DNA of 64,000 nt from Sedimentisphaera salicampi (GTDB lineage: Bacteria > Planctomycetota > Phycisphaerae > Sedimentisphaerales > Sedimentisphaeraceae): NCBI RefSeq assembly GCF_002117005.1, contig NZ_CP021023.1, positions 434,001 through 498,000 on the forward strand, read 5' to 3'. Under the pieces are notes generated by a model. That model had not been told where the DNA came from. It saw nothing but the letters and a program-made list of their open reading frames with translations, and made no database searches. Below are positions 37,506 to 52,434 of the stretch, in pieces. A program made the position numbers and the translations under genes. Positions within the stretch are counted from its first letter, which is position 1; every line of letters begins with the position of its first letter.

Positions 37506-38459
37506 TTGGATTTCCACCTCATATTAGCTCTTCTTGCAAATATTGCCGGTGTTTATATGCTCTGCAAAGGTGCGGATATGCTCGTTGAGAGTTCTGTTTC
37601 TCTTGCAAAGAAGGCTGGAGTAAGCACATTTGTAGTTGGTCTTACGGTAGTTTCCATAGGCACGAGCGCTCCTGAAGTTGCCTCAAGTACAGCGGCAGCC
37701 GTTAAAGGGGCTGGTTCTGCGGCTTTAGGTAACATCTTCGGTTCAAATATTGCCAATATTGCTTTGATAGGCGGCATAAGCTCGCTCATAAGGCCTATGA
37801 CAGTTAGCCGGCGTGTAAGCAGGATTGAAATGCCTGCGATGAATATTATTGTATTACTAATGCTGGCATTCCTCTGGAACTGCTATATCAGCAGAATCGA
37901 AGGGCTTTTTATGCTTTCAGCTTTTATAATTCTGCTGTATCTTGTAGTATATGAGGCCCACAAGGGAAGAAAAATCGCAGCTTTAGAGCCTGTTCCCAAA
38001 ACTCAGATGCCTCTTCGAAAAAGCATCATCATTCTCGCAGCAGGGCTCGTTTTTTTGATTGGCGGCGCAAAGCTTGCGCTGGAAGGGGCTGTGTATATCG
38101 GCAGAGCTATAGGCATAAGCGAGGCTGTAATAGGGTTGATAGTTCTTGCGATAGGGACGAGCCTGCCCGAATTGATTACGTGCGTAACAGCTGCTCTGAA
38201 GGGGCATGAAAATATCTCTGTAGGTAATTTGATAGGCTCAAATATATTCAATGCCCTCCTAGTTACAGGTGTGGCATCTTCTGTGAGCCCTTTCAGCTTT
38301 GAAGCAAGGCTCAAAGGGGCAGACTACCTTCTCGTGCTTGCAACGGGCATAATATTCCAGATCTTTGCAGTTCGAGGAGGAAAAATATCAAGGCCTAACG
38401 GCGCCTTTCTTCTGCTAGTATATATCGCTTATACAGCCTACTGCTTCATTCACGGATAA
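37506..38459 (+). CDS. calcium/sodium antiporter of the CaCA family
   Basis: A 317-residue inner-membrane antiporter with two repeated halves of about five transmembrane helices each. The alpha-repeats are VSIGTSAPEVASSTAAAVK with GNIFGSNIANIALIGG, and LAIGTSLPELITCVTAALK with GNLIGSNIFNALLVTG. These hold the acidic and polar ion ligands known for this YrbG/NCX-like family. The start is TTG at 37506 with AAGGAG 5 bases upstream. The stop abuts the convergent DksA-like gene with no gap. Confidence 0.9.
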   Translation: MDFHLILALLANIAGVYMLCKGADMLVESSVSLAKKAGVSTFVVGLTVVSIGTSAPEVASSTAAAVKGAGSAALGNIFGSNIANIALIGGISSLIRPMTVSRRVSRIEMPAMNIIVLLMLAFLWNCYISRIEGLFMLSAFIILLYLVVYEAHKGRKIAALEPVPKTQMPLRKSIIILAAGLVFLIGGAKLALEGAVYIGRAIGISEAVIGLIVLAIGTSLPELITCVTAALKGHENISVGNLIGSNIFNALLVTGVASSVSPFSFEARLKGADYLLVLATGIIFQIFAVRGGKISRPNGAFLLLVYIAYTAYCFIHG

Positions 38460-38918
38460 TCAGGCGAGATACTGCTTATAGTCTTCAAGATTAACTTCTT
38501 GACCTTCACGTACGAGATTTTTTTCAAGCAGCCTCGCATATGCAATACAATATCTTGCCCATGGCTTTGCCTCGAGCCGCTTTTTGTTAATAGCTTCGCC
38601 AGTAGCTTCGCAGAGACCGTATGTGCCTTTGTCAAACTTCTGTAAGGCGTGCGTGATTTCCGAAAGAGTTTCACGTTCACTTTTCATCAAATTCAGAGCA
38701 AAGTCCTGAGAATAATTATCACTTCCCAAATCAGCCATATGTATCGGCATACTTGAGAGGTCTCCGTTAGACTCGCCCAACGTGTTCTTGAGCGTGTCAT
38801 TCTCTATTTGAGTGAAATCACCAAGTATTTCCGCCCTTCTTTTAAGGAGGAGATATTTGAAATGATTCATTTCCTTATTCGTAAGGTGCTTAGATTTCTT
38901 TGATTTTTTTTGAGCCAT
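38460..38918 (-). CDS. DksA/TraR family regulator with incomplete zinc finger
   Basis: A 152-residue DksA-like protein that would bind RNA polymerase's secondary channel. It has an N-terminal coiled coil (KEMNHFKYLLLKRRAEILGD) and the DFALNLMKSERETLSEI region. In the zinc finger the motif is CEAT-(17 residues)-CIAY, so two of the four usual Cys are Thr and Tyr. This is nearly the CXXT-X17-CXXA form described for Pseudomonas DksA2, which works without structural zinc. The same may hold here. Confidence 0.82.
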   Translation of the reverse strand: MAQKKSKKSKHLTNKEMNHFKYLLLKRRAEILGDFTQIENDTLKNTLGESNGDLSSMPIHMADLGSDNYSQDFALNLMKSERETLSEITHALQKFDKGTYGLCEATGEAINKKRLEAKPWARYCIAYARLLEKNLVREGQEVNLEDYKQYLA

Positions 38919-39040
38919 ACTCTTGACAACCTTTATTGTTGTTTAAATATCGTTCTGAAAGCGTTTAGAATTTTAGAGAATAATATTTTATGTTCAACAG
39001 CAAATTGCTAATTATCAAAACATTTAAATTTTCTTAAAAA

Positions 39041-41149
39041 TTAGATGCCCCAGAAATCGGCTAAATAAATAAAGTCGATATAGTCCACAAAGCCGCTTTC
39101 ATCCAAATCTGTCTTCAGACAATCCTCTTCAGGAGTTTCAAGCCAGCAAGAGGCAAAAATCGATAAATCGCTCTCATTAACCGCACCGTCGCTGTTCAAA
39201 TCGGGAGTCAGCTCGTAAAAACCGAAATCTACTCCTGTTTTCGCCTCCCCTGCGTAAATATCAACGTAATTTTTATTAACATCTGATATTTGAACCAATC
39301 CCTCAGCAAGGCTATATGCGTTCACTCTTTTATAGTATTCGTAAGTGTTTTGGACGTTGTCATTTTCATCGTCCCCATCGTAAATATTTTGGGCAGTTGC
39401 TTTAATTATTTCCCTGAGCTGAGGGAAAGTAAGCTTAGTTCCGCGGAGATCTTCTGAAATCTGCTGGGCTATAACACTCACTCCCGCAAGGATCGGTGAA
39501 GCCTGAGAAGTACCGCTCATAGTTAAAATATTCCCGCTGTTTCCTGCCGCTGTAATCTTCGCTCCAGGAGCCATGAGGCAGGATATCTGATGATGCCTGA
39601 GGCTGAATGGAGTAATTCTGTCTGCATCGGTAGAAAATGCTGTCGCTCCGCCCGAGTAAGACATATAACCGATATCGTCATCAAAAACAGCTCCCACTGA
39701 CATTGTATTCAGATCAGAGGCAGGGTATGAACAGCCCTCGTCAGGAGCGTGGTCTATATAGCTGTTTCCAGCAGAGCAGAATGAAGCTACGCCCATTTCT
39801 GCTAAAGCAGAAAATTCATCATTCAGTCCGTAGCCCGCGGTGAAGCTGTCATTGTTTTCCCCATCTCCCAGCGATATATTAACGCTCGCTATATTATAGG
39901 CTGACGCATTATTCACAACCCACTGGAGTGCTTCTTCTACGTAACCAAAAGTGGCGTTGCCTTCATCATCGAATACTTTAAGGGCAATTATGTCCGCAAC
40001 CGGCGCGATTCCCGGATAGGTATCATCTTCGCCGGCAATTATGCTGGTAACGTGTGTCCCGTGCCCGTCGTAATCTGCAGCCGAGCTGTCATTTTCGGCA
40101 AAGTCATACTGATATACAATCCTGTCGGCCACGCCGTTATTGTCCAGATCAGGGCCGAAAAAACTGTGATCAACATCAATACCTGTATCTATAACAGCAA
40201 CTGCGTATCCTTGGCCGCTGTAGCCGTCGAAGTTGTAATCATTCCGAAAATCACTCATTCCAATCAAATCATTTGTTTCGATCATATCAGGCCTGATTTC
40301 GCTGTCTGTCTGACCCATTTTGAAAAGGGGTGCTTCAGAACCTTTGGTTGTGCAGTCTTCGGAAGGCAAAGGTGCTGCACCCATTTGCTGGGGCTGGAGC
40401 GGAGAGAGCTCATAAGGATAGGTTTGAAGCCATCCAGACTGCGAAATTGCAGATATTAAATGACTGCCTGCCTTGAGTTCTGTAAGGGTATAGTTTCCGC
40501 TTGAATCTGTAACATCGTTTGGCTCATTTGAGTCTAATGTTCCGTTGAAATTCGTGTCAGAATAAACTGTCCAGCCCTGCGGGCCAGTCTCGCCGGCATC
40601 TTTGCTGGCATTAAAATTAAAATCGGTGAATATATTGCCTGATATAGAGCTGTAACCGCCCTGTCCTACGCTGATTATCCGTTCGAAATAATTGTTGGTT
40701 TCATCGCTTTCCTGCACCTCATCGTAATAATCAATCTCCACAGAAATTGTATATGCCCCGGGCTGGAGGCTGCCCAGATATTTATCTGTGTAGAAACTGA
40801 AAGTTTCGCCGGAGAAAAAAGGCCATACGCTGAGATCGAAAATCCAGCTGTTAGTTTCAGGCCCTTCTAAAACAATCCGGACAGAGAAATCCCCTGCCAT
40901 AGAACTGCCTTCATTTTTTACGGCCATATTGTAGTACAAATCGGTCCCGCTGGTGTAGAAAGGATTGGAAGTATGGTTTTCGGAATCGGAAAGCTGCTGA
41001 TAGCCTACAGGAATCTCTTCAAGCCAGTTATCAGGAAGGTACGGGGCTAGATCAGAGGCTGCAGAGGCTGCGTAAGAAAATTCAGTTGATAAAACTCCCG
41101 AAGCAAAAAGTATAAGAAGGCATAAGCTTTTCATTGCTGAATTCGTCAT
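39041..41149 (-). CDS. secreted subtilisin-like serine protease with CARDB, SdrD-B-like and dockerin-like domains
   Basis: A 702-residue exported peptidase S8. The signal is SLCLLILFASGVLSTEFSYA. A CARDB-like sandwich (residues ~55-165) and an SdrD-B-like repeat (NIFTDFNFNASKDAGETG) precede the catalytic domain. The triad is visible: AVIDTGIDVDHSFF (Asp), DGHGTHVTSIIAG (His) and GTSQASPILAGV (Ser), with CSAGNS for the oxyanion site. The tail has two dockerin-like repeats, DLNSDGAVNESDLSIF and DLDESGFVDYIDFIYL, ending ADFWGI. GGGGGG lies 6 bases before the ATG. An IS5-like element is inserted 34 bp upstream of the start codon and may have cut off the native promoter. Confidence 0.87.
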   Translation of the reverse strand: MTNSAMKSLCLLILFASGVLSTEFSYAASAASDLAPYLPDNWLEEIPVGYQQLSDSENHTSNPFYTSGTDLYYNMAVKNEGSSMAGDFSVRIVLEGPETNSWIFDLSVWPFFSGETFSFYTDKYLGSLQPGAYTISVEIDYYDEVQESDETNNYFERIISVGQGGYSSISGNIFTDFNFNASKDAGETGPQGWTVYSDTNFNGTLDSNEPNDVTDSSGNYTLTELKAGSHLISAISQSGWLQTYPYELSPLQPQQMGAAPLPSEDCTTKGSEAPLFKMGQTDSEIRPDMIETNDLIGMSDFRNDYNFDGYSGQGYAVAVIDTGIDVDHSFFGPDLDNNGVADRIVYQYDFAENDSSAADYDGHGTHVTSIIAGEDDTYPGIAPVADIIALKVFDDEGNATFGYVEEALQWVVNNASAYNIASVNISLGDGENNDSFTAGYGLNDEFSALAEMGVASFCSAGNSYIDHAPDEGCSYPASDLNTMSVGAVFDDDIGYMSYSGGATAFSTDADRITPFSLRHHQISCLMAPGAKITAAGNSGNILTMSGTSQASPILAGVSVIAQQISEDLRGTKLTFPQLREIIKATAQNIYDGDDENDNVQNTYEYYKRVNAYSLAEGLVQISDVNKNYVDIYAGEAKTGVDFGFYELTPDLNSDGAVNESDLSIFASCWLETPEEDCLKTDLDESGFVDYIDFIYLADFWGI

Positions 41150-41177
41150 AGCGAACCCCCCTTTGAATTATAAAACC

Positions 41178-41183
41178 TATTTA
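41178..41183. repeat. flanking direct repeat TATTTA, left copy
   Basis: Probable target duplication of the IS5-like element; the matching copy is at 42716-42721. Confidence 0.7.
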
Positions 41184-42715
41184 GTCGTTCCTGAAAAATC
41201 AATGTTTTCGGAAAAATTCCCGAAATATATCAGATCAATTGAGTCTTTAACTTGTTTTTGATTCCCAAATTTCTATAAAATCCAACAATTTGAAGCGTAA
41301 AAATAAGGGCAAAAGTAAACTTCTTTAGAAGTTTACGCATATTGTACCCAAAAGCGCTGCCGAGAGCGTTCATTTTGTCCCCTTCTACACCTTTCAAGAA
41401 GTTTCTTGCCAACCTGTTGTCTTCTTTGAGATGGCCTATCGTTGGTTCTATGCTTGATCTTCTTTTAAGCCACCTCTTGATACTTCGTTTCTTCTTTCGC
41501 CAGCCCCTTTCTACAATCTCAACATTCCCAATATCCTCACAGCCGTGTTTCTTATAACCTCCATCAACATAAACATCTCCAAGCTTCTTACGCCCGATAA
41601 ATTTCATTGTCTGCCTCAGGTTAGCTTGCAGGGTATGGCCATCATAAGGGTTGCCTTCAAAACCCAACGCTCCTACAATGAAATTATTCTTGGCAGTAGT
41701 TACAATTCCAACCTTATTGCCAAACTCATATTTTTTGTGGCTCTTACCTTTCGCAATGCAGCAGACGTGAGGCTCATGAATGCTGTAGAGCTTATTCTTG
41801 CTTTTCTTTGTCTGGGCTAAAAGCTTCTTTGCGGCCTGAAGCAATGTATCAAAAATCATTCTTAACTGATTATTGTCTGCTATATTCCGCTCAATTTCCT
41901 TCGTAATCCGCCGCAGGTAGTTCCTCAATTTCTTCACTTCCTTTTTTGCTTCCTTGAACTTCCTTGCACGTCGATACCTACCCTGCATCACATATGCCCT
42001 TTTCCCAACCCTTTCATAGCTCTGGCGAAGATGGATTTGGGTGGCTTTTGCAAGAGCTACAAGTTTACTGCGAAGTCTGTGGCAGAGTTTTGCATCGGTC
42101 GGATAAGTGATGTTCTTCTGCTGAACGGTTGTATCTGCAACAAGCTTGTTGAAATCGCTCTTCTTGATAACCTTGAGTTTCAAGCCTGCCTTAATAGTTT
42201 CAGCAAGCAGCTCTTCAAGACCATCAGATTTTACCTTATTACGCCATTTAGTCATACTAGTAGGATCTATGGGAGGCTCATGCTGAAAGTATCTCTCACC
42301 GCAGAAATACTGCCAGTAAGGGTTCTCAATCCAGCCGGCAACGACTGCTTCATCGCTGAGATTGAAAGTGTATTTGAGGTATTGAAGGCCGACCATCAGG
42401 CGAATCGGCTTGGCTGGCCTGCCTAAATCAGGACTGTATAAAGTACCAAACTTTTCCTCAAAGCGAGACCAGTTGACAGCTTCTGAAAGTTGTACTAAAG
42501 AATGATCAGGATTTACAAGAGGTTTTAATGGCTGCTGAAAGAGTAAGCCTGCTTTATTGTTTTTTGCCTTCATTATTTTGTCCCAATATTGCAAGGTTTT
42601 GATAGATGTTAGATAAACACTTGCAATATTATACCATATCCTGAAAGCTTTTCAATCATATAAACCATTATTACAAAAGAATTTAAGGAAATTTGCAGAC
42701 TTTTTCAGGGACGAC
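41184..42715 (-). mobile_element. IS5-family-like insertion sequence with short inverted repeats and a 6-bp flanking repeat
   Basis: A 1532-bp element carrying one DDE transposase. The ends are inverted repeats GTCGTTCCTGAAAAAT (41184-41199) and, read inwards, GTCGTCCCTGAAAAAG (42700-42715), with two differences. Direct repeats TATTTA flank the ends (41178-41183 and 42716-42721) and are probably the target duplication. IS5-family members make duplications of various lengths, so the exact subgroup is open; IS1182 is an alternative assignment. Confidence 0.82.
41230..42573 (-). CDS. IS5-family-like DDE transposase
   Basis: A 447-residue transposase with an N-terminal DUF772-like region (RPAKPIRLMVGLQYLKYTF, WQYFCGERYFQHEPP), VADTTVQQKNITYPTD (first Asp), DVYVDGGYKKHG (second Asp) and RSSIEPTIGHLKEDNRL (Glu). 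The reading frame is uninterrupted. ATG at 42573 follows GGGA; a TTG at 42594 is a less likely start. Confidence 0.9.
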   Translation of the reverse strand: MKAKNNKAGLLFQQPLKPLVNPDHSLVQLSEAVNWSRFEEKFGTLYSPDLGRPAKPIRLMVGLQYLKYTFNLSDEAVVAGWIENPYWQYFCGERYFQHEPPIDPTSMTKWRNKVKSDGLEELLAETIKAGLKLKVIKKSDFNKLVADTTVQQKNITYPTDAKLCHRLRSKLVALAKATQIHLRQSYERVGKRAYVMQGRYRRARKFKEAKKEVKKLRNYLRRITKEIERNIADNNQLRMIFDTLLQAAKKLLAQTKKSKNKLYSIHEPHVCCIAKGKSHKKYEFGNKVGIVTTAKNNFIVGALGFEGNPYDGHTLQANLRQTMKFIGRKKLGDVYVDGGYKKHGCEDIGNVEIVERGWRKKKRSIKRWLKRRSSIEPTIGHLKEDNRLARNFLKGVEGDKMNALGSAFGYNMRKLLKKFTFALIFTLQIVGFYRNLGIKNKLKTQLI

Positions 42716-42721
42716 TATTTA
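42716..42721. repeat. flanking direct repeat TATTTA, right copy
   Basis: Probable target duplication of the IS5-like element; the matching copy is at 41178-41183. Confidence 0.7.
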
Positions 42722-42880
42722 AGGTCGATTTATATATCTTGAAGATTTACTTAATATTTTTTAACAATTGAACATAGTATTTTTGGCAAATTAATCATTA
42801 CGCTCAATCTTGTTAATTTACTGCCACTGAAAGATTTTGTTCTTTGATGTTAAAAAACTAGTAAAATAAAAGGGTCTGTT

Positions 42881-44158
42881 TTATTGTTCAAGCCTGATTA
42901 GATCTTCATAAGTTTGACGTTTCCTTATTACCCTGTAATCATCACCGTCCACAAGAACCTCTGGGAGCATTGGCCTGGAGTTGTAGTTGCTTGCCATTGT
43001 AAACCCGTAAGCACCCGCCGTGAAAAGAGCCAACGCATCTGCTCTCTTAAGAGGCGGCAAGAGCCTGTCTTTGGCTAAAAAGTCGCTTCCCTCACAAATC
43101 GGCCCGACTACATCATATTTCTCCAGCCCTTTCATCTGCATATCCTCGGTCCGTTGCTTAGGAACAAATTCCAAGCCCGCTTTCACCGGCCATATAAAAT
43201 GGAATGCTTCATAAAGAGATGGCCTTATCATATCATTCATAGCTGCATCAACAATTGCAAATTTCTTGCTGCCCCCCTGCTTTATATACTGTACTTCAGA
43301 GAGCAGTATTCCGGCGTTAGCGGCAATGCTTTTGCCCGGCTCAAGGATTAGTTTCAGGTTTTTCCCCTTCAGCAGAGGCACAATAGCCTCAGCATACTGC
43401 TTCGCCGAAGGCCCGTATCCGGTTACATAATCCGCACCATATCCGCCGCCTATGTCAAGGGCTTCAATCTCATAACCTTTACTGCGCAGGGTATCCACAA
43501 GAGTTAAGATCTTCTCGATAGCCTCAACATAAGGGTCAACAGTGTTTCCGCCTGAGCCCAGATGAATATGTATCGCCCGAAGCTTAACGCTTGGGTTGTG
43601 GGAGTATGTATCGAAAACCTTTTCAGCCCTCTCAATATCCACTCCGAATTTGCTTTCCTTCTTCCCTGTGGTTATGTATGCGTGGGTTTTAGGATCTACG
43701 TCCGGATTAACCCTCAAGGCAGCTTTAGCTGTGCAGCCCCGCTCAGAGCTCAGCCTGATCAGATTTTCAAGCTCCTCTTCGCTTTCAATGTTGAAATATT
43801 CTATGCCGGCATCAAGGGCCTGCTTAATCTCCTGGTCGGTCTTGCCCACTCCAGCGTAAACAATCTTTTTCATATCCGCGCCGGCCTTAATCGCCCTGAA
43901 GAGCTCGCCTCCGCTTACGATATCAAAACCGGAGCCGTTTTCCCTTAAAAACTTTAGGATATTAATATTGCTGCAGGCCTTTATAGAATAACATACGGTT
44001 GTATCCATTTCTGAGTAGGCGTTCTGGATTTTGTGCAGATGGTCAAGGAAGGTATTCTTACTATACACATAACAGGCAGTACCTACTTCTTCTATAATCT
44101 TTGAAGCAGGGAGCTGCTCTATATACAGCTCCCCGTTTTTGTAGTTGAATCTGTCCAT
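42881..44158 (-). CDS. lysA: diaminopimelate decarboxylase
   Basis: Last step of lysine synthesis: meso-diaminopimelate to lysine, PLP-dependent. The 425-residue protein has CYSIKACSNINIL with the PLP Lys, GSGFDIVSGGELFRA, IHLGSGG, LDIGGGYGADY, LEPGKSIAANAGILL and VVGPICEGSDFLAKDR with the active-site Cys. The order is an alanine-racemase-like barrel and a C-terminal beta domain. It lies 4 bp after the RRM gene and may be co-transcribed with it. Confidence 0.95.
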   Translation of the reverse strand: MDRFNYKNGELYIEQLPASKIIEEVGTACYVYSKNTFLDHLHKIQNAYSEMDTTVCYSIKACSNINILKFLRENGSGFDIVSGGELFRAIKAGADMKKIVYAGVGKTDQEIKQALDAGIEYFNIESEEELENLIRLSSERGCTAKAALRVNPDVDPKTHAYITTGKKESKFGVDIERAEKVFDTYSHNPSVKLRAIHIHLGSGGNTVDPYVEAIEKILTLVDTLRSKGYEIEALDIGGGYGADYVTGYGPSAKQYAEAIVPLLKGKNLKLILEPGKSIAANAGILLSEVQYIKQGGSKKFAIVDAAMNDMIRPSLYEAFHFIWPVKAGLEFVPKQRTEDMQMKGLEKYDVVGPICEGSDFLAKDRLLPPLKRADALALFTAGAYGFTMASNYNSRPMLPEVLVDGDDYRVIRKRQTYEDLIRLEQ

Positions 44159-44162
44159 AAAA

Positions 44163-44741
44163 TCAGCTTTTATTGGTGTAATTTTTGTTTTTTGGTCTGC
44201 GGCTTTTCGCCACGGTTACATTAATAGCCTTGCCTGAGAGATCAGTTCCATTAACCTCTTCGATAGCCTTGCCCGCTTCGGACGGCTTAGACATCTCAAT
44301 AAAACCATAGCCTTTTGAATCGCCTGTCTCTTTATCAGCAATGATTCTTACTGAATTCACCTCTCCGTACTTGGAGAATATTTCCCTGAGATGGGTTTCA
44401 AAAACATCTGAGGCCAAATTTCTTACGTGGATAGTTACAGGTCCTTCTTTGGGAAGTCTCGGTGCAGAAGGCTTTGTGTTTTTGGTGTTCTTGCTGGATT
44501 TGGATTGCTTTGGAGAGCGTTTGCTTCGTTTTGAAGACTGATAAGGACTTTTAGTTTCGCTGAGTCCAAGCACGGCAGTTACATAAACCATAAAAAGGGT
44601 TACAGCACCGTGAAATGCAATCTGCTGGGCAACTTCTTTTTTGCTTGCACCGGAATCCATTGCAAAAGAAATACCTGCTCCAAAAAGCAGTATTAACACT
44701 AATGTAACAACCGGCCACATCGCCTTAAGTTTCTTTAACAT
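44163..44741 (-). CDS. membrane-anchored RRM RNA-binding protein
   Basis: A 192-residue protein with an unusual layout. Two hydrophobic segments near residues 8-28 (WPVVTLVLILLFGAGISFAM) and 42-60 (AFHGAVTLFMVYVTAVLGL) precede a Ser/Lys-rich linker (KSPYQSSKRSKRSPKQ). The C-terminal half is an RRM with RNP2 (IHVRNL) and RNP1 (SKGYGFIEM). Bacterial RRM proteins are usually small, soluble and cold- or stress-linked; membrane tethering is not typical. The first segment could alternatively be a signal peptide, but the second would still anchor it. It lies between lepA and lysA. Confidence 0.82.
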   Translation of the reverse strand: MLKKLKAMWPVVTLVLILLFGAGISFAMDSGASKKEVAQQIAFHGAVTLFMVYVTAVLGLSETKSPYQSSKRSKRSPKQSKSSKNTKNTKPSAPRLPKEGPVTIHVRNLASDVFETHLREIFSKYGEVNSVRIIADKETGDSKGYGFIEMSKPSEAGKAIEEVNGTDLSGKAINVTVAKSRRPKNKNYTNKS

Positions 44742-44781
44742 ATTATCTCCTGATAATTAAACTACATTTACAGAGGGCAAC

Positions 44782-46578
44782 TTATTCACCTGATTTTAGG
44801 ACGCTCTTAAACGCCTCTTGAGGGATTTGTACAGATGCAACACTCTTCATACGCTTTTTGCCCTCTTTCTGCTTTTTTAATACCTTCATTTTGCGGGTAA
44901 TATCCCCGCCGTAAAGCTTAGAGGTTACATCTTTTCTGTACGCCTTGATTGTTTCCCTTGCAATCACTTTTCCGCCGATAGCCACCTGCAGCGGCACCTC
45001 GAACTGCTGCCTCGGGATTGCCTGACGAAGGCGATCGATCATTTTCCGGCCTCTTGTCTCAGCAGATTCCCTGTGAACTATAGTGGATAAGGCATCCACC
45101 TCTACCTTATTAACCAGAATGTCGATTTTTACAAGATCGCTTTTCTCAAAGCCGATAAGCTCATAATCCATCGTTGCATAGCCTCTGGTTGCTCCTTTGA
45201 GGATATCATAGAAATCGTAAACAATCTCGGCGAGCGGAGCCTTAAACTGCATCATTACCCGATTACTTCCGAGATATTCAGTTTTGCCAACTACACACCT
45301 TCTCTGCTCTGCAAGCTGCATAACAGTTCCGATGTAGTCTTTTGGCATAATAACCTCAAGTTTTACAAAGGGCTCCCTGAACTCTTCGATTTCGCTTCTC
45401 TCGGGAAGCTGAGAAGGCGAATCGACCTTGAAAATTTCTCCCGAAGTTGTCATCACCTCATAGCTCACACTTGGCGAGGTTTGGATAACTTCAATATCGT
45501 TCTCTCTTTCAAGTCGCTCCTGAACTATTTCCATATGCAGAAGTCCAAGAAAGCCGCACCTGAAACCAAAGCCCAGAGCCGGCGAATTCTGCGGGAAAAA
45601 CGTAAAGCTTGAATCATTGAGAGCAAGCCTTTCGAATGCAGCTTTCATCTTTGGATAATCGCTGCTCTGAGCAGGATAGAAATCTGAGAAAACCATCTGC
45701 ATTGGTGGTTCATAGCCGGGTAGAGGATTCTCAGCGGGTTCATCAAGGCTGGTGATAGTATCGCCGACACGTACATCCGAGAGGCTCTTTATATTGGCAA
45801 TCATATAGCCAACCTCTCCGCAGCCGAGCTCTTTGCGCTTATCCATCTTTGGTGTAAATTTGCCAAGCTCGGTTACTGTGTAGCTGTGCCCGCAGCTCAT
45901 AAATGATATCTTCTGCCCTTCTTTAATTTTGCCGGAAACAACCCTCAGGTAGCAGATTACTCCGCGGTACTCATCAAAGTGGCTGTCAAAAACCAGGGCC
46001 TGAAGCTTATCATTTATGTTATTTTCCGGAGCAGGCAGTCTTTCAATTATTGCTCCAATGAGCTCATCTATACCTTTTCCGGATTTAGCACTTACCGAAA
46101 TGCACTCTTCCCGTCCAATTCCAAGAATGTTTCCAAGCTCTTCAATCACCGTTTCGGGCATTGCGGCAGGAAGATCAATCTTATTCAACACAGGAATTAT
46201 TTCGAGGTCTTCGTTAATAGCAAGGTATGCATTGGCTACAGTCTGCGCTTCTACGCCTTGAGCAGAATCAACGACAAGAAGAGCCCCTTCGCAGGCAGTC
46301 AGAGCCCGTGATACCTCATAACTGAAATCCACATGCCCTGGCGTGTCAATTAGGTTGAGCATATATCTCTCGCCCTTGTAATTGACATACATGGTAACAG
46401 CGGAGGCCTTGATCGTAATGCCGCGCTCTCTTTCAAGATCCATACTGTCGAGCAGCTGATTATGAAATTCCCTTTGAGTAACCGCTCCTGCATGCAGCAT
46501 AATTCTATCTGCAATAGTGCTCTTGCCGTGGTCTATATGTGCTACTATGGAAAAATTTCTTATATTTGCTAAATTCAT
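44782..46578 (-). CDS. lepA: elongation factor 4 (LepA)
   Basis: A 598-residue translational GTPase that binds stalled or mistranslocated ribosomes. GTPase motifs are FSIVAHIDHGKSTIADR, RERGITIKASAVTM, DTPGHVDFSYEVSRAL and NKIDLPAA. The LepA-specific C-terminus includes GGDITRKMKVLKKQKEGKKR. Normal length for the family. It starts 20 bp after ileS and is probably part of the ileS-lepA-RRM-lysA transcript. Confidence 0.96.
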   Translation of the reverse strand: MNLANIRNFSIVAHIDHGKSTIADRIMLHAGAVTQREFHNQLLDSMDLERERGITIKASAVTMYVNYKGERYMLNLIDTPGHVDFSYEVSRALTACEGALLVVDSAQGVEAQTVANAYLAINEDLEIIPVLNKIDLPAAMPETVIEELGNILGIGREECISVSAKSGKGIDELIGAIIERLPAPENNINDKLQALVFDSHFDEYRGVICYLRVVSGKIKEGQKISFMSCGHSYTVTELGKFTPKMDKRKELGCGEVGYMIANIKSLSDVRVGDTITSLDEPAENPLPGYEPPMQMVFSDFYPAQSSDYPKMKAAFERLALNDSSFTFFPQNSPALGFGFRCGFLGLLHMEIVQERLERENDIEVIQTSPSVSYEVMTTSGEIFKVDSPSQLPERSEIEEFREPFVKLEVIMPKDYIGTVMQLAEQRRCVVGKTEYLGSNRVMMQFKAPLAEIVYDFYDILKGATRGYATMDYELIGFEKSDLVKIDILVNKVEVDALSTIVHRESAETRGRKMIDRLRQAIPRQQFEVPLQVAIGGKVIARETIKAYRKDVTSKLYGGDITRKMKVLKKQKEGKKRMKSVASVQIPQEAFKSVLKSGE

Positions 46579-46598
46579 TTATTCCCTTAAAGGAGTTC

Positions 46599-49436
46599 TC
46601 AAACAGCAGAAGACTGCTTAACAGCTTTGGCGCATCTCTTGCACAAGTCTGGATAGTCTTCATCTTCACCCACTGTAGCGGAGTAGTTCCAGCATCTCTC
46701 GCATTTTTTGTGCTTGGATTTGCTGGCTGTAACCTCCAGATTCTCGCCTCGCTGTATTTCAGCTTCACTGATTATACAGAGCTCCGCAAAATTATCATCA
46801 CCAAATTGTTCAAGCATCTCAGCAGTTTGCTCATCCGCCTTTACGATGACACTTGCCTGCTGGTTTGAGCCTATAGTCTGGTTTTGCCTAAGCTCTTCAA
46901 GTTTCCTGAGAACTTCATCGCGTATTTCAAAAATCGTTTTCCATTTATCCTGCTCAGCAGAACATGGAATCTCCTCGGGAGCATCTATAAGAGAAAGATG
47001 CACGCTTTCGGAATTTTCATCTTTCTGATCAAGTGCTTCCCAAGCCTCTTCTGCGGTATGCACCATTATTGGCGCAATTAACTTAATCAGACCGTTAAGG
47101 ATTTTCCAAAGTACAGTTTGGCAGCTCTTTCTTGAAGGGCTTTCGGGCAGCTCGCAATACAAGCGATCCTTCACAACATCCATGTAAATGTTGCTCATTT
47201 CCACAGTGCAGAAATTGTATATGCCGGCAAATGCCTTATGAAAGACGAAATTATCATAATCTTCGATAACATTTTTGACCATAAGATTATAACGGTAAAC
47301 AGCCCACTGGTCTATCTGCTCCATCTCCTCAACAGCGACAGCTTGTTCAGGCGTAAAGTCCTTTATATTACTCAGCATATACCTTATGGTATTGCGGATT
47401 TTCCTATAAGAATCTCTCATCCTGCCGATGAGCTCATCGCTGCATCGCATATCTTCCTGATAATTCACGCTGGAAACCCAGAGTCTGAGGATATCCGAGC
47501 CGTATTTTTCGATCTCCTCCATTGCGTTTACATAGTTCCCTAAAGACTTGCTCTGTTTGTGCCCTTCAGCATCCACCGTAAATCCGTGGGTGAGAACATT
47601 TTTGAAAGGCGCTTTGTGCATCGCTCCAAGCGCGGGCAGAAGAGAAAGCTGAAACCATCCTCTGTGCTGGTCGCTGCCTTCTAAATACAAATCAACGGGC
47701 AGATCCCATCCCCTGTTTGCTGCAACGCTGTGCCAGCTGCAGCCGGACTCAAACCATACATCAAATATATTTTCTTCTTTTTCCAGATCATCAAAACTGA
47801 AACCCTCAGGCAAATCAAAATCCTCGCCGAGTATTTCTCTCGGGCTGTCGGTAAACCAGCTGTCCGAACCTTTCCTGTCTATATGTTCTGCTGCTGAGGC
47901 AACAGCCTCAGGGGTTAGCAGGCTCCGCCCTTCTGAATTAACAAATACCGGTATCGGCAGCCCCCAGCTTCTCTGCCTGCTGAGACACCAGTCCGGCCTT
48001 GATTCAAGCATACCTGCAATCCGCTTTTTGCCCCAGCCGGGTATCCAGCGAACCTCCTCAGTACTGGCAACAGCCATCTCCCGCAGCGTCTTTCCAGTGT
48101 CCTGAAGCTTTCTGTCCACGCCCACAAACCACTGCTCTGTTGCCCGGAAAATAACAGGCATTCTGCTTCTCCAGCAATGCGGGTAGCTGTGAAGCATATC
48201 TTTTCTTGCAAAAAGAAGGCCGTCTGCTGAAAGCCTTTCAATAACCTCTTCATCCACCTTCAGAACATTCTTGCCTGCAAGGAAATCCGGAACGCTCTGA
48301 TCGTAGTTGCCGTTTTCATCTACAGGCGAGTAAATTTCCAGCCCGTTTTTCACGCCGGTCATATAGTCTTCAGTTCCGTGCCCGGGTGCTGTATGAACGA
48401 GCCCTGTTCCGTCTTCTGTGGTAACGTAATCTGCCTGCACAACGAAATATGCATCTGCTTCAGTAGGTTTTTCAGTGATAAAGGGATGAGTGTATCTCAG
48501 CCCTTCAAGCTCAGAGCCTCTAACCCTCGCCTCAGAAACGGTGAAATCTGTTAGCCCTGCAGCATGGGATGCCGCTTCAATACGCTCAGCGCATATAATG
48601 TCTGCATATTTCTTTCCGTTTCTTTCATACTTTATAGCTGCATATTCAAGCGACGGATTAACAGCAACAGCAAGATTGGCGCAGAGAGTCCAAGGGGTGG
48701 TTGTCCAAATCATAAAGCTTGCTGTTTCGCCCGCCTCTGCAAGGCCGAGCTGTCTCAGCTTTTCTGCTGAATCTTTTTCTGCAGGGAAGTTTACGTAAAT
48801 GCTCGGGGATGTAATGTCTTTATATTCGAGCTCAGCATCAGCAAGAGCTGTCTGGCAGCCTACAGACCAGTGAATCGGCTTGAGCTGCTTGTAAACAAGC
48901 CCCTGCTCTACAAGCTTGCCGAAAACCTCAAGTATTCCCTTCTCGTAAGCGGGCACCATTGTGAGATACGGGTCTTCATAATTTCCGAAAACTCCAAGAG
49001 ATGCAAACTGCTTAGACTGAAGCTTTACATACTTGCTTGCATACTTCTTGCAGCGTTTGCGGATCTCGAGCTTTTCCATATCCGCCGCTTCTTCTCCGAG
49101 CTCAGTCATCACCTTCGCCTCAATGGGCAGCCCATGGCAGTCCCAGCCCGGTACATACGGGGCATCAAAGCCTCTCATAGTCTTGTATTTTACAACAATA
49201 TCCTTGAGTACTTTATTGATCACGTGCCCCATGTGGATGTCTCCATTGGCATACGGAGGGCCGTCGTGCAGAATATATGGCTTGCTGCCCTTCCGGGCTT
49301 CTCTGATTTTCTGATATATCTTTTCCTTCGCCCACTGCTTGCGCATCTGCGGCTCGCGCTGGGTAAGGTTGGCCTTCATTGCAAAAGACGTTTTGGGAAG
49401 ATTCAGCGTTTTCTTGTAATTTTTATTTTCCGACAT
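46599..49436 (-). CDS. ileS: isoleucyl-tRNA synthetase
   Basis: A 945-residue class I synthetase. [16 protein letters not shown] holds the HIGH signature, and [11 protein letters not shown] is the KMSKS loop with Gln for Met. The editing domain includes [14 protein letters not shown]. The C-terminal zinc finger is [20 protein letters not shown] followed by CKRC. Length and domain order are standard for bacterial IleS. A near-consensus promoter lies upstream at 49476-49503 on the same strand. I see no T-box leader. Confidence 0.96.
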
Positions 49437-49475
49437 TTCTACTGTTCCGTTTCTCAGTTAACATATAGACCGTTA

Positions 49476-49503
49476 ATCATAACGTTTACTGAGTTAATGT
49501 CAA
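49476..49503 (-). promoter_or_regulatory. strong putative sigma70 promoter for ileS
   Basis: On the minus strand, consensus TTGACA (plus coordinates 49498-49503) and TATGAT (49476-49481) with a 16-base spacer, 39 bases before the ileS start. Confidence 0.7.
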
Positions 49504-49827
49504 GATATGCTGTCGTGTATTTAGAAGAACGAAAAGTTGAAATACGAAAATCCCAAAATCCAAAGAGCAGCATTTTCAGTCTCTGAGCAGCGTTGATTTT
49601 AGCGAAGGACTTAGTAAACGCTAATCCGCACTAATTTTTGTTGATTATTTATTTATGCGATAAAAGCTGGCGGCAGAAAGCGGCGGCCGCTCTTGTGCGG
49701 GGAATCTTCTCGCCACACGTCAATTGCCCAAAAATCCCAGCAATTTGGTAATATATGTGTTTAATTTGGGATTTACATCCCATCCTTTCAATCCTGTCTA
49801 AAAATAAACCTGAAATATTATTTCATA

Positions 49828-49856
49828 TTGACTTTAATGCCGAAAATATATATAGT
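49828..49856 (+). promoter_or_regulatory. putative sigma70 promoter for kdsB-pyrG
   Basis: TTGACT at 49828-49833 and TATAGT at 49851-49856, spacer 17 bases, 54 bases before the kdsB TTG start. Confidence 0.65.
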
Positions 49857-49910
49857 ATTTAGGCAGTGAGTTTTAGAAAATAAATAGAAAACTAACTGCA
49901 AGGATACAAC

Positions 49911-50642
49911 TTGAAGACTGTTATAATAATTCCCGCCAGATATGATTCCACCCGTTTCAAGGGTAAGATTCTCGCCTCAGAAACTGGCAAATATCTTGTG
50001 CAGCACACTTATGAAACTGCTGCTAAAGCCGAATCGGCAGATAAAGTCATAATCGCCGTTGACAGCGAGAAAGTTTTGCAGGCATGCCAAAGTTTCGGCG
50101 CAGAGTGCGTCCTCACTGACCCTGCTTTGAAGAGCGGTACAGACAGGGTTGCCAAAGCCGCTGAGAACACAGACTGCGATATTATCGTTAATGTTCAGGC
50201 TGATGAGCCTGAGATAGACCCGAAAAATCTCGACCTGCTTGCAAAACTGCTTGAAAACAACAAAGAGGCAGATATGGCAACGCTTGTTACGCCGGTTAAG
50301 GATCGAAGAGAAGCTGAAAACCAGAACGCGGTAAAGGCAGTTGTTGCAGAAAACGGGTATGCGATTTATTTTACCAGACAGCCCGTACCGTACTCACGTA
50401 AAGACGGGCAGCCTAATTTAAGTCTTATGAAACGGCATTTAGGGGTCTATGCGTACAGAAAGGATTTTCTTATGAAAATCACCCAAATGCACCAGACTCC
50501 GCTTGAGATAAGCGAATCACTCGAACAGCTTCGAGCTCTGGAAAACGGCTTCAGGATCATAGCAGATGAAATTCCGGAGGCGCACGAAGGAATAGATACG
50601 GAAAAGCAGTATATGGCTTTTGTTAAAAGAATACTTAAATAA
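49911..50642 (+). CDS. kdsB: 3-deoxy-manno-octulosonate cytidylyltransferase
   Basis: Activates KDO with CTP to CMP-KDO for lipopolysaccharide core synthesis, evidence of a KDO-containing outer membrane. The 243-residue protein has IIPARYDSTRFKGKIL, KSGTDRVAKAAE, IIVNVQADEPEIDP, YFTRQPVPYSR and HLGVYAYRKDFL, all typical of KdsB. The start is TTG at 49911 with AAGGA 6 bases upstream. CTP synthase is directly downstream, matching substrate supply. Confidence 0.95.
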   Translation: MKTVIIIPARYDSTRFKGKILASETGKYLVQHTYETAAKAESADKVIIAVDSEKVLQACQSFGAECVLTDPALKSGTDRVAKAAENTDCDIIVNVQADEPEIDPKNLDLLAKLLENNKEADMATLVTPVKDRREAENQNAVKAVVAENGYAIYFTRQPVPYSRKDGQPNLSLMKRHLGVYAYRKDFLMKITQMHQTPLEISESLEQLRALENGFRIIADEIPEAHEGIDTEKQYMAFVKRILK

Positions 50643-50658
50643 TTTTACGGCGGTAACA

Positions 50659-52434
50659 ATGTCCCAGAAAAGGGAAGATATATTTGCAAGCATCAGCAAT
50701 AAATCCTCGGATACTGAATTCTTCTCTCCCGTACCAAAAGGGTATGTTAAGGGAAAAACTAAGTATGTAGTAGTTCTCGGTACAGTTATGAGCGGATTGG
50801 GCAAGGGTATATTCTCCTCGTGCGTTGCCAAGCTTATGCAGGATAAGGGCCTTAAGGTATCTCCCGTGAAGCTAGAAGGGTATCTCAATATGGATTCCGG
50901 CACGCTTAATCCATTCCGGCACGGAGAGGTTTTCGTTCTCGATGACGGCATGGAATGCGATATGGACCTTGGAACTTATGAGAGAATGCTCAATTTAGAC
51001 CTTTCCAAACAGAATTTCAGCACCAACGGTCAAGTATTCAGTTCTGTGCTGAAAACAGAGAGAGGCGGCGGCTACCTAGGCCGGGATGTTCAAGTTATCC
51101 CTCATGTTACAGGCGAGGTCAAACGCAAGCTTCGTGTGCTTGCAAGAGACAGCGAAGCGGATGTCGTTTTCGTGGAAATCGGAGGAACTGCAGGCGATCT
51201 GGAAAACGCATTCTACATCGAGGCAATGCGTGAACTGGCAAACGAGGAGGGAGACAGCAACTGCTGTTTCGTGGCCCTAACCTATATCCTTGCCCCGCAG
51301 ACCCTCGGAGAGCAGAAATCAAAGGCCGCACAGCTTGGAATAAGGGAACTGCTTCAGAAAGGTATTCAGCCCTCAATTATAGCTTGCAGATGCGAAGAAG
51401 AGGTAACAGAGCAGGTTAGAGAGAAGATCAGCCTTTTCAGCAACGTACCCTTCAGCAACGTATTCAGTATGCACGATTCAAAAAGCATATACCTTATCCC
51501 CGCAATGCTCAGAGACAGCGGCGTGGATTTCAGCATCATAAAAATGCTGGGGATTGAAGACAAGATAGATCTGCGCAAGGAACGCAGTGAATGGGAAAAA
51601 TGGTGCGATTTTACCGATCGGGTAACTAAAGACCATAAAAATGAGGTTACAATAGGGATAACCGGCAAATACATATCCGTACGGGACAGCTATGCATCAA
51701 TCAGCAATGCGATTGAGCACTGCGAGGCATGGCTTGGCTGCAAGGTTAATGTGGAGTGGATAGAGGTTACAGACATCACCCCGGAAAACACTGAAGCTGC
51801 TCTAAGAGGCGTTGACGGGATAATAGTTCCGGGCGGATTCGGCGTACGGGGAACTGAGGGCAAGATAGAATGCATAAGGTATGCAAGAGAGCACGATTTG
51901 CCATATCTGGGGCTCTGCCTCGGCTTTCAGATGGCTGTGATTGAATATGCGAGGAATGTATGCGGGATAAAAGATGCCAACAGCTCTGAAATCGCTCCAA
52001 ACTGCGGCAGCGCAGTGATAAACCTCCTGCCGGAACAGAAAAAGATTGAAGGGCTAGGCGGAAATATGCGTCTTGGGGGAAGGGATGTGGAAATCAAGAA
52101 GGATACGCTTGCTTATAAGCTTTTTGGTGATGAGCAGACCGCAAGGCTCAGATTCAGACACAGATATGAAGTTGACCCTGAATACATAGAACAGCTTCAA
52201 AATGCAGGACTCGTGTTCTCAGGAAAAGCGCCGAACCATCCTATAATGCAAATTCTAGAGCTGCCTGAACACCCGTATTTCATCGGAACTCAGGCACACC
52301 CATGCCTTACATCAAGACCGCTCAATCCCAGCCCAATGTTTCTTGGCCTGATTGTAGCAGCTATGAAGCATAAATACCCGGGAATTTATCCCGAGGACGT
52401 TTCAACCCTTGTTAAAAAGGCGGTGCGTAAATAA
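50659..52434 (+). CDS. pyrG: CTP synthase
   Basis: Makes CTP from UTP and glutamine. The 591-residue protein starts at ATG 50659 (ribosome-binding site GGCGGTAA). An upstream in-frame TTG at 50620, inside kdsB, is unlikely. The synthase domain has LGTVMSGLGKGIFSS in place of the usual VTGGVVSSLGKG, EGYLNMDSGT, DLGTYERML and VFVEIGGTAGDLE. The GATase domain has PGGFGVRGTEGKI, LGLCLGFQMAVIEY with the Cys nucleophile, and HPIMQILELPEHP with EHPYFIGTQAHP. The ~35-residue N-terminal extension is longer than usual. It lies 16 bp after kdsB. Confidence 0.95.
   Translation: MSQKREDIFASISNKSSDTEFFSPVPKGYVKGKTKYVVVLGTVMSGLGKGIFSSCVAKLMQDKGLKVSPVKLEGYLNMDSGTLNPFRHGEVFVLDDGMECDMDLGTYERMLNLDLSKQNFSTNGQVFSSVLKTERGGGYLGRDVQVIPHVTGEVKRKLRVLARDSEADVVFVEIGGTAGDLENAFYIEAMRELANEEGDSNCCFVALTYILAPQTLGEQKSKAAQLGIRELLQKGIQPSIIACRCEEEVTEQVREKISLFSNVPFSNVFSMHDSKSIYLIPAMLRDSGVDFSIIKMLGIEDKIDLRKERSEWEKWCDFTDRVTKDHKNEVTIGITGKYISVRDSYASISNAIEHCEAWLGCKVNVEWIEVTDITPENTEAALRGVDGIIVPGGFGVRGTEGKIECIRYAREHDLPYLGLCLGFQMAVIEYARNVCGIKDANSSEIAPNCGSAVINLLPEQKKIEGLGGNMRLGGRDVEIKKDTLAYKLFGDEQTARLRFRHRYEVDPEYIEQLQNAGLVFSGKAPNHPIMQILELPEHPYFIGTQAHPCLTSRPLNPSPMFLGLIVAAMKHKYPGIYPEDVSTLVKKAVRK

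Follow-up and report, generated by a model that had tools for sequence, protein, structure and literature searches.

The window (the whole analysed stretch of DNA, 64,000 nucleotides of Sedimentisphaera salicampi contig NZ_CP021023.1, positions 434,001 to 498,000) carries on its reverse strand a small gene whose product appears to join a membrane anchor to an RRM. The locus raises the question of whether such a protein would hold RNA at the membrane and, if so, which transcripts it would act on. The gene is best read as coding for a membrane-tethered post-transcriptional RNA-binding protein.

The gene and the parts of its protein

The following features were assigned (window positions; residues are those of the protein), the start codon and the ribosome-binding site being read from the sequence:

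44163 to 44741, reverse strand: gene of the predicted membrane-anchored RRM protein, 192 aa (open reading frame, RRM_1 profile, AlphaFold model, dN/dS)
44747 to 44751, reverse strand: ribosome-binding site AGGAG, five bases before the ATG start codon of the RRM gene
44655 to 44738, reverse strand: predicted transmembrane helix 1, residues 2-29 (AlphaFold helix; Kyte-Doolittle 2.32)
44562 to 44642, reverse strand: predicted transmembrane helix 2, residues 34-60 (AlphaFold helix; Kyte-Doolittle 1.85)
44442 to 44561, reverse strand: basic Ser/Lys linker, residues 61-100, mostly disordered (pLDDT under 50 at 62-92; net charge +10)
44196 to 44441, reverse strand: RRM domain, residues 101-182 (RRM_1 profile, PDB relatives, AlphaFold model, Foldseek)
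44415 to 44432, reverse strand: RNP2 motif IHVRNL, residues 104-109
44292 to 44315, reverse strand: RNP1 motif KGYGFIEM, residues 143-150

The layout given in a preliminary description of this DNA, namely two hydrophobic segments followed by a Ser/Lys linker and a clear RRM, agreed with the hydropathy (scored as Kyte-Doolittle means over 19 residues), with the helices of the AlphaFold model (mean pLDDT 74.3 and pTM 0.45, built on a 10-row alignment), with the RNP motifs and with the RRM_1 profile (PF00076), which matched residues 105-173 at E 1.6e-20 and 73.2 bits, above the gathering cut-off of 20.7. Ten-residue blocks of the modelled RRM from 101 to 180 averaged pLDDT 90 to 94. The top Foldseek match to the model was RBM39 RRM2, and the best 50 matches are mostly RRM proteins, in part judging by their titles. 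The PDB sequences that matched the protein at E ≤0.001 numbered 290 distinct entries, with 7qzp of Acinetobacter baumannii among the best 60 of the 290. By score and by fold (motifs, AlphaFold model and PDB matches) the window protein is a member of RRM_1. It was scored as a non-member of NCBIfam NF058537 (Rbp_regulator; E 7.6e-25, 87 bits, below the curated cut-off of 100). One other RRM_1 match was present in the same genome, a 94-aa protein devoid of a hydrophobic stretch.

The same layout (two N-terminal hydrophobic stretches, linker, RRM) was found in ten of ten members of a family, the window protein counted, from ten genomes of the order: all five genomes of the window's own family, f1 (G000, the window's genome; G147, a congener; G144, from another genus; G145 and G146), one of f7 (G148) and four of f3 (G103, G107, G127 and G128). 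The protein of G147 (91% identity to the window protein) was used as partner for dN/dS, with few codons available per part. The hairpin gave a dN of 0.06 with a dS of 0.25, the linker 0.12 with 0.96, and the RRM 0.016 with 0.80. Because of these values the open reading frame is regarded as a real coding gene, and the hairpin as kept by purifying selection, less tightly than the RRM. In all ten members the N-terminal tail had a positive charge and the loop joining the two helices a net charge of +1 or less; the linker ranged from +4 to +10 in nine, with a value of -3 in G148. Read with the positive-inside rule, which is established knowledge, this charge pattern would put both ends of the hairpin, and with them the RRM, in the cytosol. 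Insertion into the inner membrane with a cytosolic RRM is hence a prediction with good support, and the tethering of the RRM to the membrane, as first described, was borne out by prediction and conservation (two helices, hairpins in ten of ten members, purifying selection).

Two alternatives bear on the protein itself. Helix 1 might be a cleaved signal peptide, the remainder being exported or released, so that the RRM would be neither cytosolic nor tethered. Residues 25-27 (S-F-A; A-F-A in G147) resemble a signal peptidase I site, but some members, judged by eye, are without such a site, and a second hydrophobic stretch follows in ten of ten members, succeeded by a basic linker in nine. With helix 2 present, cleavage after helix 1 would therefore leave a one-helix anchor and the RRM inside, and release of the RRM is considered very unlikely. 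The other alternative takes the RRM for a protein-binding or structural domain that does not bind RNA. RNP2 position 2 and RNP1 position 8 are usually aromatic; the former was Tyr in five of the ten members and His in five, the latter Met in all ten, and both His and Met depart from the usual pattern. Set against this, the two central RNP1 aromatics (Tyr or Phe at position 3, Phe at position 5) were kept in all ten members, and the RRM has the low dN between the window genome and G147 given above; a domain without RNA binding is judged unlikely. Because of its RRM family membership, the window protein probably binds single-stranded RNA via RNP1 and RNP2.

The family within the order and its gene neighbourhoods

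When 161 genomes of the order were searched by similarity, at least 145 matched, mostly via the RRM. From the matches listed, loci L001-L073 were read (L001-L033 being selected automatically, L034-L073 picked partly for long open frames), and these held 63 distinct RRM open reading frames, of which 10 had two or more hydrophobic stretches, one had a marginal stretch and 52 had none. The membrane RRM family is thus patchy, with at least 10 of the 161 genomes as carriers. A profile of the hairpin alone, run against the same 161 genomes, matched nine members, missed G144 and gave no further clear member (marginal matches in G048, G055 and G111, E 0.002-0.009). The full-length profile matched nine members at E below 1e-60 among 397 genomes of the class (a sample without G127), the next match being an RRM-only one at 5e-39; among 392 genomes of the phylum there were four matches at E ≤1e-41, all of them members already known.

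The kinship of the hairpins was assessed by profiles built without each group in turn and scored against 234 two-helix decoys. Seven of the ten members (G145, G146, G148 and the four of f3) were recovered above all decoys; G000, G147 and G144 were missed, with 85, 61 and 17 of the 234 decoys scoring as high. The kinship of the window's genus and G144 to the rest therefore rests on the RRM and the gene layout. In a tree of the RRM, built from 68 rows and 87 columns, one clade comprised the six members of f1 and f7 (support 98/90) and a second clade the four of f3 (96/86). The members require two changes on this tree, which does not establish one origin for the family; the grouping of all members in one clade is not rejected (p-AU 0.33).

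In the window the RRM gene lies within a likely operon, ileS-lepA-rrm-lysA, which is likewise found in G147:

46599 to 49436, reverse strand: ileS, first gene of the likely operon (TIGR00392, 918 bits, cut-off 621.4)
44782 to 46578, reverse strand: lepA, 40 bases upstream of the RRM gene (TIGR01393, 916 bits, cut-off 533.9)
42881 to 44158, reverse strand: lysA, diaminopimelate decarboxylase, 4 bases downstream of the RRM gene (TIGR01048, 464 bits, cut-off 297.9)
49476 to 49503, reverse strand: promoter-like sequence TTGACA-16-TATGAT before ileS (11 of 12 matches)

Promoter-like sites of such quality numbered 16 in the region, against 10.3 expected in shuffles. An Rfam scan of window positions 38000-52000 gave no match, hence no riboswitch near the RRM gene, and a scan of the same type over nine related loci gave two tRNAs only and no riboswitches. 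Two further open reading frames near the operon were named by reading: a transposase-like one just downstream of lysA (41230-42594, reverse strand), with none at that place in G147, and a subtilisin-like protease with C-terminal dockerin-like repeats (39041-41149, reverse strand), a similar frame to which comes after lysA in G147.

The window's genus and the other genus, G144, share lysA as a neighbour; in G144 it begins 83 bases after the RRM gene, and no lepA is present in the 9.7 kb upstream. In f3 the genes that follow the RRM gene are metXW (G127, G128) or a gene for a NAAT-family transporter with metX behind it (G103, G107). In G148 hom-apgM-lysC lies on the same strand as the RRM gene, beyond two intervening genes; in G145 and G146 the RRM gene stands on the opposite strand, and a single gene lies between it and lysC-apgM-hom, on which it converges. 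The apgM of these loci also exceeds the cut-off of TIGR02535, a proposed homoserine kinase. Within 4 kb, at least one of lysA, metXW, hom, apgM, lysC or the NAAT gene was present at ten of the ten membrane RRM loci and at none of 109 other RRM loci of the control set (13 + 18 + 78, the 18 with flanks of just 2 kb on either side), the query set being without asd, dapA, dapB, thrB and others; thrC, which was added later, gave no match near the 109 control loci. The partner genes are unlinked in the complete genomes of G000 (lysA 477 kb, metX 1016 kb, hom 2132 kb) and G103 (metX 97 kb, lysA 758 kb, hom 2979 kb), and therefore the RRM gene has, from lineage to lineage, different genes of a single pathway beside it. 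Within the order the membrane RRM is genetically associated with aspartate-family amino-acid genes (lysine, methionine, threonine), a post hoc association: the ten loci amount to about four contexts, and the choice of pathway came only once they had been seen.

Membrane RRM proteins in other phyla and the meaning of gene partners

Membrane-bound RRM proteins had at first been described as rare in bacteria, a view that the spread search did not support. Among 80 loci similar to the window protein, a membrane stretch was found in two of 73 RRM open reading frames, one in a Mariprofundaceae MAG (L201, two helices) and one in a Lentisphaerota MAG (L128, one helix), which therefore indicates a minority design, not rarity. 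The L201 query matched 105 of the 299 genomes in its phylum, many through the RRM alone, and the resulting family (about 150 aa) had two N-terminal hydrophobic stretches in 51 of the 51 loci examined, among them that of Aeromonas caviae. The L128 query matched 322 of the 337 genomes in its phylum; among the best 30 loci, one membrane stretch exceeded the threshold in 27, and a sigma-70 gene lay on the same strand in all 30 (26 scored upstream, four with overlapping open frames). Among 78 other named RRM loci, two, each from a Kiritimatiellota-type MAG, also had a sigma-70 neighbour. The L201-type and L128-type sets were chosen for their resemblance to a membrane RRM, and their figures therefore show breadth, not frequency.

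The hairpins of the window family and of the L201 family were not alignable by hhalign (probability 0.4%), which fits either separate origins or divergence beyond recognition. Aspartate-family queries matched at one of 50 L201-type loci (NAAT only) and at two of 30 L128-type loci (thrC), with flanks shorter than those in the order; the aspartate link is therefore not general beyond the order. Phage records gave three matches, all RRM-only, and 191 plasmid records matched the L201 query, none covering 80% of it. As side observations, the pairing of a one-helix RRM with sigma-70 (rpoD-like) was recorded for L274-L303 (for example L274:1501-1932, with sigma-70 upstream), threonine synthase genes (thrC; L128:5314-6747 and L275:97-1476) directly follow a one-helix RRM gene and so give an aspartate-family neighbour in another phylum, and the L201-type two-helix loci are L220 and L223-L272, some with trmA-, glutamate-racemase- or RluA-type neighbours (one member of each checked).

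It is a tentative and rather doubtful proposal that membrane-anchored RRMs are recurrent, overlooked bacterial RNA-tethering regulators that arose several times (with two helices in the window's order and in the phylum of L201, with one helix in that of L128), whose constant gene partners (aspartate-family genes in the window's order, sigma-70 in the phylum of L128) would name the processes controlled from the membrane.

How far the neighbours of the RRM gene point to its function was weighed against two further explanations. In the preliminary description the position after ileS and lepA had suggested a link with translation or membrane-localised mRNA. A helper of membrane-localised translation tied to LepA or IleS would suit the likely operon of the window and G147, but ileS-lepA adjoins the RRM gene in these two congeners only, and a scan of six other members with at least 9.5 kb readable upstream gave neither gene (the contigs of G145 and G107 end 2 and 330 bases upstream of the RRM gene, too soon for a judgement). 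The special link to translation was not sustained by this distribution, such a tie is held to be quite improbable, and ileS-lepA was rejected as a general feature, only G147 of nine related loci scanned having both genes (two being unreadable upstream). A link of the window protein to membrane-localised mRNA is possible. The broader explanation is a general membrane RNA chaperone with no tie to its neighbours, the aspartate neighbourhoods then being due to chance or to shared operon ancestry. It has the anchor and the binding of RNA in common with the best explanation, so that the likelihoods assigned to the two are not exclusive. The one-helix proteins beside sigma-70 would fit a general chaperone, as would clusters of trmA, glutamate-racemase and RluA-type pseudouridine-synthase genes at 10, 10 and 13 of 50 L201-type loci; the contrast of ten of ten with none of 109 loci near aspartate-family genes, and the lack of linkage among the partner genes, argue against it. 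It is regarded as a real possibility, although on the doubtful side.

Proposed function and comparison with known RRM proteins

The best explanation, which we consider fairly probable, is an inner-membrane-anchored single-RRM RNA-binding protein that holds or modulates chosen transcripts and most likely tunes the mRNAs of aspartate-family genes or of its own operon. The two-helix hairpin, with both ends in the cytosol, would anchor the protein in the inner membrane, and the flexible basic linker of about 40 residues, which may itself touch RNA or lipid, would let the RRM reach RNA near the membrane. On the cytosolic face the RRM would bind single-stranded RNA via RNP1 and RNP2 and thereby hold or modulate chosen transcripts. 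From the neighbourhoods we infer that the likeliest targets in the order would be mRNAs from the adjacent amino-acid genes or from the operon that encodes the protein, and the most likely effect would be a tuning of their translation or decay. To our knowledge, little is understood of how mRNA is placed or controlled at the bacterial membrane, and dedicated tethers are few. A small protein that combines an anchor and a flexible basic arm with a standard RNA-binding domain makes a simple candidate tether, for which the conserved gene neighbourhoods supply named candidate transcripts.

No description of a membrane-anchored bacterial RRM was found in the open-access literature with narrow search terms, which is weak evidence of absence, and none of the L201-type two-helix family with similarly narrow terms. 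Cyanobacterial Rbp proteins are reportedly linked with the localisation of thylakoid mRNA, as the title of the 2020 paper by Mahbub et al. suggests. The cyanobacterial proteins Rbp1-3 have a single RRM, like the window protein, together with a C-terminal region that is Gly-rich, of another type or absent, and an N-terminal anchor is not mentioned in the available text (PMC9333190). RbpB of Bacteroides is a global RNA binder by CLIP-seq and, grouped by assumption with NF058537, resembles the window protein as a single bacterial RRM_1; the available text mentions no anchor (PMC11697453), whereas the window protein carries an anchor of two helices followed by a basic linker. The other RRM proteins of the order contain the same RRM_1 but, apart from the single marginal case, are free of hydrophobic stretches, and many of them, by reading, have a Gly/Arg-rich tail. 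The L128-type proteins share the order of membrane stretch, linker and RRM but have one helix and adjoin sigma-70. The L201-type proteins, that of Aeromonas caviae included, have the same layout as the window protein, with a hairpin that is unalignable to its own and with other neighbours.
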